DNA from: Aestuariivivens marinum
GTDB lineage: Bacteria > Bacteroidota > Bacteroidia > Flavobacteriales > Flavobacteriaceae
Assembly: GCF_022662175.1 (NCBI RefSeq)
Contig: NZ_JAKMCR010000001.1
Coordinates: 496,001-560,000, forward strand
Direction: 5' to 3'
DNA length: 64,000 nt
Below, in pieces: positions 53,782-61,546 of the stretch. Made by a program: the position numbers and the translations under genes. Positions within the stretch are counted from its first letter, which is position 1, and each line of letters begins with the position of its first letter. A model generated the notes under the pieces. That model had not been told where the DNA came from, ran no database searches, and saw only the letters and a list, made by a program, of their open reading frames with translations.

Positions 53782-55350
53782 TTAATCTAAAACTACAATA
53801 TTATTTGACACTGAATTGCCTTTAAATATTAATTTAGAAATGTAAATCCCTGTTTTTATTTTGTTTCCATTACAATCATATTCATCCCAATCTATTTTAT
53901 GCTTCCCTATATTTTTATTGGTAATTTCAAACCTTTTAACAAGTTGACCAAATAAGTTATAAACTTCTATTAGAACGTTTCCCTTGGATGGGATTTCAAA
54001 ATATAGTGTTGTGGTATTACTATTTTTAATGGGTGTTTTTTGGTTTAGTTTTAATTGTCTTTGGTTATTTTCATTTTCAAAGGAGAATTTCCAAACATCA
54101 TTATCTACATTTAAATAATTAAAAGGATCAAAGAAATTAAATGTTTCTCTGTCGCCGCCAAAACTAAAAATCATATCTGAATTATTTCCTTCTCCCTCAA
54201 CGACAACGGTATCAAAATCATATTTTATTTCTGAAGGATTATTCGCATTCCAGGGTGAATCACTAACTTTTTTCCAAATACTACCATTATTACTGGTCCA
54301 TACATCCATTGGGTTTGCAGGATTTATACCATTATCTGGGCCAAGTCCGAAACCTCCAAACAGTATAAATCTGTTTTGTGCCACCACAACCTGATGTCCA
54401 GGTCTTGCAACCCATGGAGCATTATCAGTAACTAATTCCCAGTCTATTCCATTTTGTGTTCGCCATACATCATTAAAATATGGAGGGTCAAGACATGGTG
54501 GTTGTTGTGTTGGAGGATAATTTGGATTGAAAGGACAGGTAAACCCTTCTTCGCCGCCAATCATGTACATGTAGTTGTCTTTAACTACTGCAATACCCCC
54601 AGCTCTTTCGGCCCAAGGTGCATGCTCAGTAACTAATTCCCAGTCTATTCCATCTGTAGATTTCCATACATCATTGTAATAAATCCTTTTAGGGCCTTGA
54701 GGTGTAATCGAAGAATCATCATTAACAGAACCGCCCATGACATAAATTTCATTATTAAAAACCACAGCGCTTAATCCAGCACGAGCACTCCATCCAGCAT
54801 TCTCCGTCATATTTGTCCAATTTATCCCATCTTCACTACGCCAAACGTCATTAAAAAAATCAGATTGAGAGTAAAAAGGAGGTAAATTTGGAATGCCTGG
54901 ATTTTGAACTATGTTAAAATTTTGACCACCAATGATATACATGAAGTCTCCTTTGCTAACAGCCTGAAAATAAGCTCGAGCAGGCCAATGCGAATTATCA
55001 TTGGTTTGAAGAATATTGTCCCATGAATTACCATAGTTTTCACTTTTCCAAACATCGCCCCAAATTATACTGGCTCCAGGAACAGGAAATGGTAAAGACG
55101 CTGGATTTAAAGGCGTTCTTCCTCCGAATAAAAAAAATTGATTTTGATGATTTAAAACTTTAAGTCCAGCTCTTGGGCTCCAATTCGCATTATTGTTTAC
55201 TTCTTCCCAAGTCCAGTGCTTTAAATTATTTCTATTATTGCCATTATTGCTTCTTCTTTGAGCATGTAAAGAAAAACAGAATACAATTAGTAAACATAAA
55301 AAAATTGATTCTAAATTTAGTAGGCTTCTTTTAAAAACAGATCTTTTCAT
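53782..55350 (-). CDS. Kelch-type beta-propeller protein with T9SS sorting domain
   Basis: 522 residues. Signal peptide (SIFLCLLIVFCFSLHAQ), then about five to six Kelch-like blades of the form DVWKSxDGxxWxxVTxxAPWxxRAG ... VYVMGG (for example NDVWRSEDGINWTNMTENAGWSARAG). Two blades share an identical 28-nt DNA stretch, which indicates recent internal duplication or conversion. The last ~75 residues (FEIPSKGNVLIEVYNLFGQLV ... KTGIYISKL) form a FlgD/T9SS-type C-terminal domain. Probably exported to the surface; ligand unknown. Monocistronic. Confidence 0.85.
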   Translation of the reverse strand: MKRSVFKRSLLNLESIFLCLLIVFCFSLHAQRRSNNGNNRNNLKHWTWEEVNNNANWSPRAGLKVLNHQNQFFLFGGRTPLNPASLPFPVPGASIIWGDVWKSENYGNSWDNILQTNDNSHWPARAYFQAVSKGDFMYIIGGQNFNIVQNPGIPNLPPFYSQSDFFNDVWRSEDGINWTNMTENAGWSARAGLSAVVFNNEIYVMGGSVNDDSSITPQGPKRIYYNDVWKSTDGIDWELVTEHAPWAERAGGIAVVKDNYMYMIGGEEGFTCPFNPNYPPTQQPPCLDPPYFNDVWRTQNGIDWELVTDNAPWVARPGHQVVVAQNRFILFGGFGLGPDNGINPANPMDVWTSNNGSIWKKVSDSPWNANNPSEIKYDFDTVVVEGEGNNSDMIFSFGGDRETFNFFDPFNYLNVDNDVWKFSFENENNQRQLKLNQKTPIKNSNTTTLYFEIPSKGNVLIEVYNLFGQLVKRFEITNKNIGKHKIDWDEYDCNGNKIKTGIYISKLIFKGNSVSNNIVVLD

Positions 55351-55693: not shown

Positions 55694-56449
55694 TTACAGT
55701 ATGATGTCACTATTAAGCCAGTGCTGTAAGAGGAGATCATTATTTGATATAGCAACAATATGGAATTTTGAAAAACTTTTAAAAACCCGAGAAGCTTCTA
55801 GAGGTTCCATGCAAACCAATCCCGGTGAAAGGTAGTTAGAGTGTATCAAAAACAATAGGCCATCACGTTTAAGAAGATAACCAACATGCCCCTTGTCAAA
55901 ACCAATAAAGTAGAGTCCTTCGGTTGTCAGTCGATTAATGTGCTCAAATGCTTTTGTGTCACTATCTTGATCAATGTTGTGAATGATCGTTCCGCAACTA
56001 ATCACCTTAGCCTCGTCAATAGGTGATTTTTGTGCTAATTTATAGCGGTTTAGTTTTATCCCCATATCACGTAACGTTGTAGAAATAAAATACCCGCAGG
56101 CAATCTCACCTTGATTAGGTACAGCTGTATGGCCCTCAAAACTCCATGGAGTACCATACCAATGTGGAATAATCCTATCTACTAAATGATTGGTAAATTC
56201 AATTTTTATCTGGTCAAAAGAAATGTCACCCTTTTTATATCTTTCGTTTAAATTTTTCCGAAGCTCATGAATATCTGCCTTGGCAGAAGCATAGGTTGCA
56301 TCCGGATCGGTTTTGGCAGCTAATGATTTAGCTTTAAAGAGAGTCTTAGCCCTTTCTTTAACGATACTGTGTTCCATAGCTAATCCTACTGTAGGAGGCC
56401 ATTGGTTATTGGGGCCAAAAAGAAATAACATAGAAAATAATAATATCAT
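55694..56449 (-). CDS. Papain/NlpC-like cysteine hydrolase, predicted secreted
   Basis: 251 residues from ATG 56449; an upstream TTG (56515) would add 22 atypical residues. A hydrophobic N-terminus (MILLFSMLFLFG) looks like a signal. A helical stretch (30-95) precedes the core: WYGTPWSFEG, then EIACGYFISTTLRDMGI (Cys118), GFDKGHVGYLL (His188) and LFLIHSNYL (His203). This Cys-His order and spacing resemble NlpC/P60 or amidase-type cysteine hydrolases that cut peptidoglycan peptides or amide bonds. It is last in an operon with a lipoprotein and a membrane protein. Assignment is from motif layout, not a known family name. Confidence 0.65.
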   Translation of the reverse strand: MILLFSMLFLFGPNNQWPPTVGLAMEHSIVKERAKTLFKAKSLAAKTDPDATYASAKADIHELRKNLNERYKKGDISFDQIKIEFTNHLVDRIIPHWYGTPWSFEGHTAVPNQGEIACGYFISTTLRDMGIKLNRYKLAQKSPIDEAKVISCGTIIHNIDQDSDTKAFEHINRLTTEGLYFIGFDKGHVGYLLKRDGLLFLIHSNYLSPGLVCMEPLEASRVFKSFSKFHIVAISNNDLLLQHWLNSDIIL

Positions 56450-56554
56450 CCTTTTTAATAATTGAATTTTGTCTTCAATGTCACAAACGCACAAATTGAA
56501 GACAAATTTTATCAAGAATGTTAAAATTTTCTGGGTCTAAGGGTTCTAATACTT

Positions 56555-57433
56555 TTAAATACTAAGGTTGACCCCCCACCATACCTCATAATCATTAGGG
56601 TTTAGTGGTCTATAGCTCTGAAATCCCTGGTCGGCTATTCGTAAGCCAATAATTTTATTTTTTTCATCACGTACATAGCCCATGAAAATAAAGGAGTGTC
56701 CATAGGGATCAAAATCTTTATCGCTTGTGCCATTTACAACCATTTCATAATCCAATCGGTATCTCCACACTTGCAACATGGCTCCCGGGTTGAGTTTTCC
56801 ATGCCATATTCCCAAACTATCAACCAGTGCCCCCATACCGGCATAAGCGATGGCCCCGGCATTGCCTCTGCCTCGATATTCAATAGGTAAGGTTTGCCAC
56901 CCTATATGGGTGCCTGAAGCAGAAAAATAAAGAAAATCGAATACCTCTTTCGGCGTATAGTAAGGTGTTGCTATACTAGCAGGAAGGTCTTCATACACCG
57001 AATGCCCATAAACATCTTTGTACGCCTTTTCAAAACGGGTTTTACTTACAATAAGGCAATGACCTCCTGGCTCCTTGTTTTTGCTTTTTAGATAATTTTC
57101 TACAATCCTAATGGCAACAGGGCTTTTAGGTTCCGAATATGAAACCATTCCGTGTTCCTTATTATTGATATTTCGTGAAGTAATTTGAAGTCTCTTATTC
57201 TCTTTAACCGTTTGTCCTAAGGTGTCTGTTGGATGTAATATCCAATACGCATTGGTTTCCGGAGTCACCATATTCCCTTCATTAGTAGTAGGGGTAGATG
57301 TATTATTGCCTATGTATTGTACAAATTTATGATCCGTCCCATATTTTATTTTTTCCTCGTTAGGGTTTGCAATAGAAGCGCACCCCAAAAGAACCATGTT
57401 TAAAAGAAATACAAATTGAACTTGAGCACTCAT
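56555..57433 (-). CDS. Lipoprotein with a NlpC-like core, apparently lacking the catalytic Cys
   Basis: 292 residues. MSAQVQFVFLLNMVLLGC gives a lipobox with Cys18. The C-terminal half has an order seen in papain-fold hydrolases: an AIAYAGMGALVDSLGIW helix (195-210), PGAMLQVWRY (217-225), then PYGHSFIFMGYV (His246) and IADQGFQSYRPL. Where active relatives carry Cys at the start of the first helix, Ala198 is seen. The only other Cys is Cys126 in GGHCLIVS. It may be inactive or use Cys126; either is inference. The start overlaps the membrane gene stop by 4 nt. Confidence 0.6.
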   Translation of the reverse strand: MSAQVQFVFLLNMVLLGCASIANPNEEKIKYGTDHKFVQYIGNNTSTPTTNEGNMVTPETNAYWILHPTDTLGQTVKENKRLQITSRNINNKEHGMVSYSEPKSPVAIRIVENYLKSKNKEPGGHCLIVSKTRFEKAYKDVYGHSVYEDLPASIATPYYTPKEVFDFLYFSASGTHIGWQTLPIEYRGRGNAGAIAYAGMGALVDSLGIWHGKLNPGAMLQVWRYRLDYEMVVNGTSDKDFDPYGHSFIFMGYVRDEKNKIIGLRIADQGFQSYRPLNPNDYEVWWGVNLSI

Positions 57434-57831
57434 TTTTTTATACTTCGATGATTCACTAATCTTTTTCTCTTGAAATGACTGATAATAAAAAGCACTCCAA
57501 CGATAGCGAAAGGAATGGTGATGGTTAGAATAATGCCCAAACTCATAAAAATAGAATGGTTCATTCTATAATTATGTGAAAATACAACAGGGCTTAGGCC
57601 TAAACCTATTATCATAAATACTATACCTCCAATGAATTCCTTTTTCCAAGCTAAAATGAGTAGGGCTATTAAAATAAAGGAAGGTATGAGATGAATTAAA
57701 AACCCACCTATTTGCTGCCAAAACGACAATTCGGGCGAAAAGGCATCCAAAGCAAATAAGCTGATAAATAAAATGGCTATTATACAGAGTATACGGGGCG
57801 TCCAATACCATATTTTTACATTATTTTTCAT
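57430..57831 (-). CDS. Four-helix membrane protein
   Basis: 133 residues with four hydrophobic segments (ILCIIAILFISLFALDAF, IGGFLIHLIPSFILIALLILAW, GIVFMIIGLGLSPVVF, SLGIILTITIPFAIVGVLFIIS) and a basic tail. No family recognised. Its ATGA overlap with the lipoprotein start shows translational coupling. It is the first gene of the three-gene envelope module, preceded by a GTTAACA/TGTTAAC inverted repeat. Confidence 0.65.
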   Translation of the reverse strand: MKNNVKIWYWTPRILCIIAILFISLFALDAFSPELSFWQQIGGFLIHLIPSFILIALLILAWKKEFIGGIVFMIIGLGLSPVVFSHNYRMNHSIFMSLGIILTITIPFAIVGVLFIISHFKRKRLVNHRSIKK

Positions 57832-58370: not shown

Positions 58371-59195
58371 CTATAAGTTATAAAAACGCCCCGCATTTAG
58401 TCCCATTATATTATCTTTTTCTTCTTTTGAAAAGCCTTCAATATATTCTCGAACAATGTTCAATTGTTGTTCATATTTCGCGGCTAACAAACATACAGGC
58501 CAATCGGAACCATATAAGATTCGATTTGTTCCGAAAGCCTCAAAAATTACGTCGAGGTAAGGTGTGAAATCATCTTTTTTCCAATGTTGAAAATTGGCTT
58601 CGGTGACCATACCGGACACTTTACAATACACATTTTCAGCTTTGGCGAGTTCTTGCATATCGACTTTCCATTCCTCAATTTTTCCGTCTCTGATATAAGG
58701 TTTAGCAATATGATCGACCACAAATTTTTGATTTGGAAATTTATTTGCCAGAACCATTGCTGCCTTTAATTGTGGTGGAAACACCAAAATATCGTAAGTT
58801 AGATTAAACTGCTCCAGTTTTGATATGCCATTTTGAAAGGCTTTGCCCAACATAAAGTCATTGGCTTCTGCCTGTACAATGTGCCGTACCCCTTTAAATA
58901 ATTTGCTTTGTGAAAAATGCGCTAAACGATCTTCTACCTGTTCTGACCTTAAATCTACCCACCCTACAACGCCTTTTATAAACGGATTTTGTGCGGCACA
59001 GGAAAGCAAAAAATTGGTTTCTGTTTCACTTTGGTCTGCCTGAACAGCTACACAACCATCTATGCTATTTGATTTTAAAATTGGGGCTAAATCTTTTGGC
59101 AAAAAATCCCTTCGGATGACTGCCATAGAGTCGTCTATCCAGGCATCTCTTACCGGATCGTAAATCCAAAAATGTTGGTGTGCGTCTATTCTCAT
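58371..59195 (-). CDS. Amidohydrolase, L-fuconolactonase-like
   Basis: 274 residues. The amidohydrolase-2 (COG3618) start MRIDAHQHFWIYDPVRD has the metal-binding HxH. Further family features are GVVGWVDLRSE, the KFVVDHIAKPYI strand and LYGSDWPVCLL (Asp) near the end. The family hydrolyses sugar lactones such as L-fucono-1,5-lactone in oxidative fucose catabolism. It follows two alpha-L-fucosidase genes on the same strand, which supports that substrate. No signal peptide, so cytosolic. Confidence 0.85.
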   Translation of the reverse strand: MRIDAHQHFWIYDPVRDAWIDDSMAVIRRDFLPKDLAPILKSNSIDGCVAVQADQSETETNFLLSCAAQNPFIKGVVGWVDLRSEQVEDRLAHFSQSKLFKGVRHIVQAEANDFMLGKAFQNGISKLEQFNLTYDILVFPPQLKAAMVLANKFPNQKFVVDHIAKPYIRDGKIEEWKVDMQELAKAENVYCKVSGMVTEANFQHWKKDDFTPYLDVIFEAFGTNRILYGSDWPVCLLAAKYEQQLNIVREYIEGFSKEEKDNIMGLNAGRFYNL

Positions 59196-59317
59196 GGTTT
59201 TATTATTAATTCATTATATTTTTTTCTGATAAAATTTCCCCAAACATAATAACCCTCTGGTTTCAAATGTATTCCATAAACACTATAATAATCTGGGTTT
59301 AAATTAAAACTGTTTAG

Positions 59318-61546
59318 TTATTCAAAAAAATCAATCTCGGCAATAGCCGCTGTTTGTTTGCCTCCTGCAATAGTCTTAGTCTCAATTCTAACATAACGTG
59401 TCGTTAGGGCTTCCTTAAAATAGTGGGTTCGTGGGGTTGGGTCATTTATGAGATTCCCAAACTCAAAGGTTTCAAATGGTTTCCATGTTATAGCATCATC
59501 ACTTATTAATATAACTCCTTTTTCAATCATGCCATCAAAATTAGTTTTTGGTGGCGTATACGAAAAGGCATTAATTGTTTTCACAACTCCTAAATCTATA
59601 TTTAAATGATGTTTAGAACCTGTTGCTTTAGATTGCCAATAGGTATTTGGATCTTCATCAAATGCATTTGTATCAAAATGTTCTGGTATAAAACTGTCGC
59701 CTGCTAAACTTTTCCAATCTGTCTTTAAAATACCAAAAACCTGTGATGTTATACTGCCTTGTTCATCCTTACTAAAAGCAACGGCTTTTACTTCTGTTGA
59801 AGCAACAATTTCAGGTTCATTAAATAGTTTGGACGTTCTTGTTGGTTTGGTGCCATCTGTAGTATAACGGATTTCAAAACTTGAGTTCAAATTACTTATA
59901 GCATCTTCGCCATGAGGTTTCCAACCAAACTCATGTCTTTTTGGAGTAATATTGAGTTTCCCTGAAACATCTCTTTTAATGGTTAACTGTGGTGGTCGCG
60001 TTCTAAAATAGTGTGCTGAAACATTTGAAACTGCAGGAACAAATCGTGATGCCGTAACACGAATTCTAAATTTGTTGGAAGTTACCTCCTTAAAACGCAA
60101 GATGCGCTTATATCCTATATTGGTTGCATGAGCAACTTCTTTCCAAGCATTATCTATCCATGCATCAAGTACATGTGCCTCAATGCGTTCACCATGTGTG
60201 GTTATGGCTTCCTGAAGCATCAATCGATTAATGGTGACGGGTTGCTTCGTAGAAATAATAATTTCATTTGAATTATCTAGCAATTCATAACTTTCAATAT
60301 CCCCATCCAAAACCTTTTCAGGTCCTGTCGCCCCTTCAAACAAATTAGTAGTGTAGGTTGCTTCAATGCGTTTGCCCACTTCATTTAATACCTGAACATC
60401 TTCATATGAAAACCTACCATCCCTATTGGGTGGAATATTTAATAAAAAGGTTGAATTGCCGCCAACGGAACGTTCATAAATATCAAACACATCGTCTGAA
60501 CTACGTACTTTCTGTTTATCTTCATCCCTATAAAACCAGCCTTCACGAATAGAGGTGTTGGTTTCTGCCTGTTGGTAATGCAAAAATTTAGCCTCGTAAA
60601 GTTTTTCCCTACTTGCTATATCTTCCTCTGTAATATCTGCAAAACTGTTCATTTTATGAGGATTATTTTGATAAGGAATTACATTCCACTCGGTATCTCT
60701 TGTAGCTCCAGATTCATTACCGCACCAACGTATGTCCTGCTTACCAAAGATAACGGCTTGTGGAGCCAGTGTTGCTATTAGCTCTTTCCAGGCCAGATAA
60801 TTATATTTTTGCCCGCCTTTACGTTTAGGATGTGCTCCATCAAACCAAACTTCATGGATGGGACCATACTCGGTAAGCAACTCAAACAACTGATTTAAAA
60901 AATACTCATTATAGTCGTCAACATTAAAGTTAAAAGTGGTTTTGTTTTCAAACGGACGGCCTTCAACAGGTCTTGGAATGGTTCTGTCTGTATATTTGCT
61001 TAAATTACCATATAGTCCTTCTTCATTTTCAATTTGATATAGATCGGCCGGTGATAGGTAAACCCCTAATTTTAAACCATGTTTTTGACAGGACTCCGAT
61101 AGTTCTTTCAAAATATCTCCCTTACCTTCTTTATAAGGTGACGACATAATGCCATGTTTGGTATACCGACTCTGCCAAAGCACAAAACCATCGTGATGCT
61201 TTACTGTGATAATAACCATTGTCATCCCTGCATTTTTCATAACCTCGCACCACTGATTAGTATCCAAGGTTTTTAAATCAAAAATTTTGGGGTCTTCCAT
61301 ACCGTTGCCCCATTCCATTCTAGTAAAAGTATTAGGTCCAAAATGGATAAAAGCTATAAACTCATTTTTTAACGCTTCGTATTGATTTTTTGTTGGAATT
61401 ATATGAGCTGCCTTTAATATGATGGAATCTCTGGAATCAGTTTCAGTTACTTCAATTGTGTTACTTGTTTGTAGTACTAGACCATTATCCGTTTTACAAG
61501 AAATAAATATTGTTAATACAATAAATAGACTATATAACTTGTTCAT
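59318..61546 (-). CDS. GH29 alpha-L-fucosidase with C-terminal carbohydrate modules
   Basis: 742 residues, lipoprotein signal (SLFIVLTIFISC, Cys17). The catalytic barrel (about 50-400) has FIHFGPNTFTRMEWGNG, TVKHHDGFVLW and the nucleophile Asp236 in EVWFDGAHPKRKGG. Downstream are an F5/8-like sandwich (about 400-510), a chitobiase C-terminal-like module (SFEIRYTTDGTKPTRTS), and a second F5/8-like module ending the protein (YVRIETKTIAGGKQ). It releases L-fucose from glycans at the cell surface. It lies 6 nt from the second GH29 gene and upstream of the lactonase. Confidence 0.92.
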   Translation of the reverse strand: MNKLYSLFIVLTIFISCKTDNGLVLQTSNTIEVTETDSRDSIILKAAHIIPTKNQYEALKNEFIAFIHFGPNTFTRMEWGNGMEDPKIFDLKTLDTNQWCEVMKNAGMTMVIITVKHHDGFVLWQSRYTKHGIMSSPYKEGKGDILKELSESCQKHGLKLGVYLSPADLYQIENEEGLYGNLSKYTDRTIPRPVEGRPFENKTTFNFNVDDYNEYFLNQLFELLTEYGPIHEVWFDGAHPKRKGGQKYNYLAWKELIATLAPQAVIFGKQDIRWCGNESGATRDTEWNVIPYQNNPHKMNSFADITEEDIASREKLYEAKFLHYQQAETNTSIREGWFYRDEDKQKVRSSDDVFDIYERSVGGNSTFLLNIPPNRDGRFSYEDVQVLNEVGKRIEATYTTNLFEGATGPEKVLDGDIESYELLDNSNEIIISTKQPVTINRLMLQEAITTHGERIEAHVLDAWIDNAWKEVAHATNIGYKRILRFKEVTSNKFRIRVTASRFVPAVSNVSAHYFRTRPPQLTIKRDVSGKLNITPKRHEFGWKPHGEDAISNLNSSFEIRYTTDGTKPTRTSKLFNEPEIVASTEVKAVAFSKDEQGSITSQVFGILKTDWKSLAGDSFIPEHFDTNAFDEDPNTYWQSKATGSKHHLNIDLGVVKTINAFSYTPPKTNFDGMIEKGVILISDDAITWKPFETFEFGNLINDPTPRTHYFKEALTTRYVRIETKTIAGGKQTAAIAEIDFFE

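Follow-up and report, generated by a model that had tools for sequence, protein, structure and literature searches.

Two adjacent papain-like proteins of Flavobacteriaceae, most likely exported cell-wall hydrolases, and the kinship of one of them with Rhs- and LRR-linked domains

What does a small cluster of envelope-related genes in Aestuariivivens marinum do, and which of its members belong together? The window, that is, the whole stretch of 64,000 nucleotides that was analyzed, includes a gene for a membrane protein followed by genes for a lipoprotein and a putative hydrolase, here designated lip and hyd, respectively (Table 1). A preliminary description had read these as a three-gene module, in which a papain-type hydrolase is coupled to a Cys-less pseudo-enzyme and a membrane partner. 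ORF calling bore out the positions and the strand of the three genes, as well as the ATGA overlap between the end of the membrane protein gene and the start of lip, and the presence of a lipobox-like LLGC agrees with the description of the latter as a lipoprotein gene. In the window, lip and hyd are separated by a spacer of 105 bases (56450-56554); the hyd ORF is callable from an upstream TTG, too (55694-56515), and the paired relatives start near the ATG at 56449. A gene for a Kelch-repeat protein (53782-55350, minus strand), whose C-terminus is FlgD-like and weakly type IX sorting-like (below the cut-offs), adjoins the pair, as do genes for an amidohydrolase and an alpha-L-fucosidase (58371-61546, minus strand), which are perhaps a sugar-utilization cluster.

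Table 1. Features of the lip-hyd locus, in window coordinates
Feature	Position	Strand	Evidence
hyd, NlpC/P60-like hydrolase (predicted), 251 aa	55694..56449	-	ORF, predicted model, fold search, residue invariance
Conserved stretch of 42 bases between lip and hyd, TTTAAC ... AATT ... CGTT	56484..56525	-	Spacer alignment, genome pattern scan
lip, lipoprotein, 292 aa	56555..57433	-	ORF, predicted model, fold search, residue invariance
DUF7670 membrane protein, 133 aa	57430..57831	-	PF24709, E 3.7e-37; co-occurrence survey

The conserved unit consists of two genes, lip and hyd, and not of three. In a scan of species genomes with the lip alignment, the two are adjacent and on the same strand in 41 of 43 loci, and a survey of 199 genomes of the family, which overlaps in genomes with the species scan, recovered lip in 8 and hyd in 17, with the two adjacent on one strand in 8/8 of the lip-bearing genomes. 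By record title, Maribacter accounts for 24 of the 41 pair loci, and the other genera include Zobellia, Kriegella, Cellulophaga, Pricia, Croceitalea, Gelidibacter, and Aestuariivivens. The spacer measures 90 to 129 bases in the pair loci, with the exceptions of L051 (61) and L084 (35), and in L080 the two ORFs as called overlap by 28 bases. Alignments, spacer counts, flank comparison, and dN/dS were based on 38 of the 41 loci, L060, L072, and L081 having been set aside on visual inspection as probable near-duplicates of L059, L066, and L079. The genes flanking the pair mostly vary: when two genes per side were compared across 38 loci, the largest common group had 5 members. The two non-pair exceptions among the 43 loci are an Rhs-linked case (L086), considered below, and, in Maribacter sp. 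ACAM166, a second, decayed pair (L087, 272-839) that retains remnants of both genes (lip, E 3e-18; hyd, 25 residues, E 5e-4) and part of the spacer element. Both genes are under purifying selection in the comparisons made, with a dN/dS of 0.39 for lip in the single comparison over 80% identity and of 0.09 to 0.41 for hyd in the 14 comparisons listed. Protein distances of lip and hyd correlate with an r of 0.86 over 703 comparisons from 38 loci, which are not independent and for which a correlation is also expected from shared descent.

Wider searches with the lip domain matched 6 of 395 genomes of the phylum, 2 of 198 in the class of genome G480, 1 of 12 in the order of genome G727, and 2 of 236 in the window's own order, the last being both pair genomes. 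Three of the six phylum matches (L092 to L094, E near 0.001) were dropped, as blastp finds no lip-like ORF there. The corresponding search with hyd matched 10 of the 395 phylum genomes. Neither gene was matched in a plasmid search, and viral contigs yielded no match to lip and a single 30% stretch resembling hyd (L141), a similarity that is probably due to chance. PADLOC returned nothing, and PHROGs returned two weak matches of unknown function (E 0.038 and 0.093); among the open-access papers searched, no title on the lip-hyd pair was found.

The spacer itself holds a gapless 42-base stretch with three short blocks (Table 1), which ends 24 to 44 bases before the hyd start. It was found in 35 of 39 spacers (the window plus 38 loci): in 33 it lies inside the spacer, in L051 and L080 a called ORF reaches into it or covers it, and in L082, L083, L084, and L085 it is absent or weak. 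A weight matrix trained on these same spacers, and scanned over the window and 43 loci, scores the 33 sites at 24.2 to 52.6 bits, L080 at 31.5, L051 at 37.6, and L060 at 21.5. Four matches above 12 bits lie outside the spacers (23.0, 18.2, 18.1, and 13.5), none of them directly before lip, and the strongest is near the weakest true spacer sites. In the window's own genome, the site of the pair is the only zero-mismatch match to a degenerate pattern, and up to 2 mismatches give 13 matches versus 13 for a reversed control. A strict pattern detected nothing in the 250 bases before lip, but it did not recognize the spacer site of the window either. RNAalifold gave no pairs for the element, and a column-shuffled control was likewise empty, so that this comparison has low power. 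Pairing between the TAAC and GTTA ends is conceivable, but these ends show hardly any variation. We regard the element as likely, or at the least perhaps, a promoter or operator of hyd, and its conservation suggests a separate, regulated start for hyd. The window spacer (56450-56554, minus strand) also contains the inverted repeat TTTGTCTTCAAT / ATTGAAGACAAA, which by eye is not kept in most other spacers. Upstream of the pair in Kriegella (L030, 8515-9646) are an ECF-sized gene of the sigma-70 family and a gene for a protein with a hydrophobic stretch, which may have a regulatory connection to the spacer element.

As to the hydrolase, the predicted model of hyd (pLDDT 84.4), in which a helical region precedes the core, presents an NlpC/P60-type papain-like fold, in agreement with the papain-type fold anticipated in the preliminary description. 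Its nearest solved structures are 7v6u (a "bacterial peptidase," Z 12.2), MepS (12.1), and Spr (10.9), where Z differences within 1 count as ties, and, judged by their titles, the first 30 rows of the fold search consist mostly of wall-hydrolase entries, including NlpC/P60 and DUF1460. Foldseek returned nothing below E 0.001, its best row being a clostridial autolysin at E 0.0025 (probability 1.00). The Cys118/His188/His203 order proposed earlier is confirmed in the sequence. In the model, Cys118 opens a helix, His188 opens a strand, and His203 lies in the next strand, and the three residues are invariant both in 39/39 paired proteins and in 24/24 rows that combine 11 paired with 13 stand-alone relatives. 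This order matches the catalytic order of NlpC/P60, given as Cys-His-His (CHH) for NLPC_P60 in the available text of PMC10318531. The likeness to NlpC/P60 endopeptidases of the MepS/Spr kind (PF00877) extends from the predicted fold and this residue order to the surroundings of the nucleophile, with GTPW/GTPY, GG or GH, and the Cys. When profiles were compared, hyd aligned to the two NlpC/P60 proteins of its own genome at E 0.0011, with a probability of only 20%, pairing GTPW/GTPY as well as both His regions.

Nevertheless, hyd departs from that family in several respects besides the helical region before its core. It has no match to PF00877 at E values up to 1, in a genome with two other places that do match PF00877, and no family of Pfam or NCBIfam at E below 0.05. 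The "GD" motif, located on the first strand in the NlpC/P60-CHAP cluster according to the available text of PMC10318531, corresponds in hyd to G178 followed by Leu, Ile, or others, the Asp being missing (alignment, by eye). By eye, its N-terminus is hydrophobic and has no lipobox, with the hydrophobic part in the window protein being short and preceded by no Lys or Arg, and several stand-alone relatives have lipoprotein-like starts. A 33-row tree, built from 12 stand-alone proteins and 21 of the 39 paired ones, puts the paired versions on one side of a branch with a support of 99/99; its bootstrap had not settled, and it has some long branches. In L127 (6789-7547) and L129 (7209-7967), what looks by eye like a tryptophan gene cluster encloses a stand-alone relative that starts like a lipoprotein, and in three genomes (L043, L044, and L045) the stand-alone relatives are split or contain stops.

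The lip protein is laid out as a lipobox with Cys18, a low-confidence linker (residues 19 to 97), and a predicted papain-like domain (about residues 98 to 292), with a mean pLDDT of 73.9, the linker under 50, and 135 residues at 90 or more. The model thus upholds the papain-type fold signals noted previously, if more weakly than for hyd. Its nearest solved folds are the CHAP endolysin Ly7917 (Z 8.2), the endolysin Lys2972 (7.7), the T6SS amidase effector Tae3 (6.9), and MepS (6.4), with the effector Tae1/Tse1 at 5.8; the best of these values falls in the range common for models without a clear match (the tool cautions at 7 to 8). MepS also shares the layout of a lipoprotein followed by a papain-like domain. 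Unlike Ly7917, Tae3, and Tae1, to which structures of the CHAP/Tae kind it has about 10% identity, lip is a stand-alone lipoprotein with no recognized delivery module and no adjoining LRR-type immunity gene. Searches against Pfam and NCBIfam gave no family at E below 0.05 and no toxin model, and profile comparisons matched lip neither to the genome's own NlpC/P60 proteins nor, for common ancestry, to hyd.

In the lip model, Cys126 opens the helix 126-142, His246 is second in the strand 245-255, and Asp268 lies right behind the strand 261-267. Papain-type enzymes carry the nucleophile, the histidine, and the third residue at such places. These three and Gln269 are invariant in 40/40 rows of the lip alignment (39 paired rows plus L086), and a 12-row set with three distant relatives retains Cys, His, and Gln in 12/12 and Asp in 11/12, with Asn in L140. 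Cys126, which opens a helix and is invariant in the 40 rows, is the likely nucleophile. The preliminary description had instead assigned the place of a missing Cys to Ala198; in the model, however, this residue comes after another helix (190-197) and not at the start of the nucleophile helix. Since lip conserves a Cys-His-Asp/Asn set where its predicted fold calls for one, it does not look like a pseudo-enzyme, which argues against the proposed pairing of an enzyme with an inactive partner.

Taking these findings together, we lean, if only slightly, toward the proposal that lip and hyd are two different papain-fold enzymes that act outside the cytoplasm on the envelope of their own cell, most likely on peptidoglycan peptides; the folds are those of predicted models, and we infer catalysis, substrate, export, and location. 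The lip protein would be anchored in a membrane through its lipidated cysteine, a flexible linker (about 80 residues) would let it reach the wall, and Cys126, His246, and Asp268 would do the cutting. For hyd, the proposal is an exported, NlpC/P60-like enzyme that would cut another bond via Cys118, His188, and His203, with the spacer element perhaps providing its separately regulated start.

The substrate is where this proposal meets its most serious alternative, namely, that the two proteins act on envelope proteins or lipids, as in surface-protein maturation or acyl transfer, and not on peptidoglycan. Papain-like families act on many substrates (PMC10318531, available text), and lip, like hyd, is devoid of the "GD" Asp, having an invariant G217-A218 at that position (alignment, by eye). 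No match in Pfam, in NCBIfam, or among PDB sequences ties either protein to a peptidoglycan hydrolase; querying PDB sequences with individual proteins and with profiles returned ribosomal proteins, designed TIM barrels (up to E 0.0014), and weak others, which we take as chance matches. Further, Foldseek gave nothing below E 0.001 for the lip model and placed staphopain proteases, which are not wall enzymes, at the top (E 0.13 to 0.19), and non-wall papain-like enzymes (UfSP2, phytochelatin synthase, and SpeB) appear at Z 5.9 to 6.0 in the fold search with lip. Against this, rows 1 to 8 of that search and most of the rows for hyd are, by title, wall enzymes or wall-targeting effectors, and we consider a nonpeptidoglycan substrate somewhat unlikely.

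A different perspective on lip comes from its relatives outside the pair, which are rare across the genome searches made. Its domain is related by sequence to one that is found directly behind an Rhs core in an uncultured Aquimarina (L086; 44% identity), with the core recognized by TIGR03696 (42.3 bits versus a cut-off of 32.5) and another Rhs-core ORF coming next. Other forms comprise a 267-aa version with a hydrophobic start (L091, genome G480) and a 455-aa version with no obvious signal peptide by eye (L140, genome G727). In 3/3 non-pair relatives, the next gene on the same strand, at distances of 0, -4, and 4 bases, codes for an LRR protein, an arrangement that resembles that of a toxin with its immunity gene. 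The three LRR proteins are similar to each other, although such repeats align easily, and the target may lie outside the cytoplasm because they begin like secreted proteins (signal-peptide-like, by eye). Zhang et al. 2012 (PMC3482391) described both Imm-LRR and papain-like or NlpC/P60 toxin tips among polymorphic toxins, which the Rhs core and the LRR-followed relatives recall. In the available text of that paper, Imm-LRR is not joined to papain-like tips and is listed beside T5SS toxins, with Bacteroidetes absent, and no immunity protein is listed for Tox-NLPC/P60. The lip protein of the window differs from these toxins in that it is a stand-alone lipoprotein that does not lie behind an Rhs core, matches no toxin model, and has no LRR neighbor, no LRR family being detected among the eight scanned window genes. 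Hence the domain appears toxin-like where an LRR gene adjoins it and is a lipoprotein without such a neighbor in the flavobacterial pair. The link to cell-wall or interbacterial functions that had been suggested for the locus is supported.

Given such kinship, the pair could still be an interbacterial weapon, in which a membrane-tethered toxin domain and a second hydrolase are used on neighbors or released in vesicles. The Rhs-linked domain of Aquimarina and the LRR genes directly next to the non-pair relatives fit this idea. However, both paired proteins look exported by themselves (by eye), with no delivery module, no protein matching the three LRR proteins is present in the pair loci (blastp, E 1e-4), and an unguarded wall toxin should harm its own producer, all of which render it unlikely. 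It is very unlikely that the pair is a toxin with an enzymatic antidote, in which hyd trims or remodels the wall so that lip cannot damage its owner, an idea that stems from the slot behind the lip domain being held by an LRR immunity-like gene in the relatives and by a second papain-fold enzyme in the pair. We return to two own-envelope enzymes as the favored reading. Since toxin-like genes next to an LRR gene share the lip domain, the pair may combine a toxin domain that has been domesticated with an envelope hydrolase of wider distribution, the direction of domestication being one that we infer.

There remains the membrane protein, a DUF7670 protein that was described as four-helical: its hydropathy delineates three hydrophobic blocks (5-36, 39-86, and 92-121), which are compatible with four helices. 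Only the window and two loci of Aestuariivivens (2/41 other pair loci) have it next to the pair, on the upstream side. In the family survey, DUF7670 has matches in 21 of 199 genomes, 15 of them exceeding the cut-off, and lip and hyd are absent within about 1 to 1.5 kb on each side in 15/15 other DUF7670 loci (L107 to L109 and L111 to L122, of which L122 is below the family cut-off; L123 to L126, all below it, fall outside this check). None of the open-access papers searched contains "DUF7670." The three genes are consequently not conserved together, although lip and hyd are, and we rejected the three-gene module; DUF7670 is a local neighbor outside the conserved pair. That all three form one functional complex is scarcely credible, since the ATGA overlap in the window and the intergenic distances in Aestuariivivens (6 and 55 bases at its two loci) are set against 39/41 other pair loci in which DUF7670 was not found and its occurrence elsewhere without the pair. 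Equally hard to credit is a pseudo-enzymatic lip that regulates hyd, which we also rejected: position 198 is Ala or Gly in 12 rows (Gln in L140) and never Cys, but it is the conserved Cys126 that opens the nucleophile helix of the model, and Cys, His, and Gln persist in all rows that include the three distant relatives.

Thus, lip and hyd are most likely two exported, active-looking cell-wall hydrolases, to judge from predicted folds and conserved residues, with the lip domain being shared with an Rhs cassette and with LRR-paired genes. They represent two papain-like families unmatched by Pfam and NCBIfam, one of which is linked to an Rhs protein and LRR neighbors, and provide a compact system for testing whether, in marine Flavobacteriaceae, a toxin-type domain has turned into a tethered enzyme of the bacterium's own envelope.
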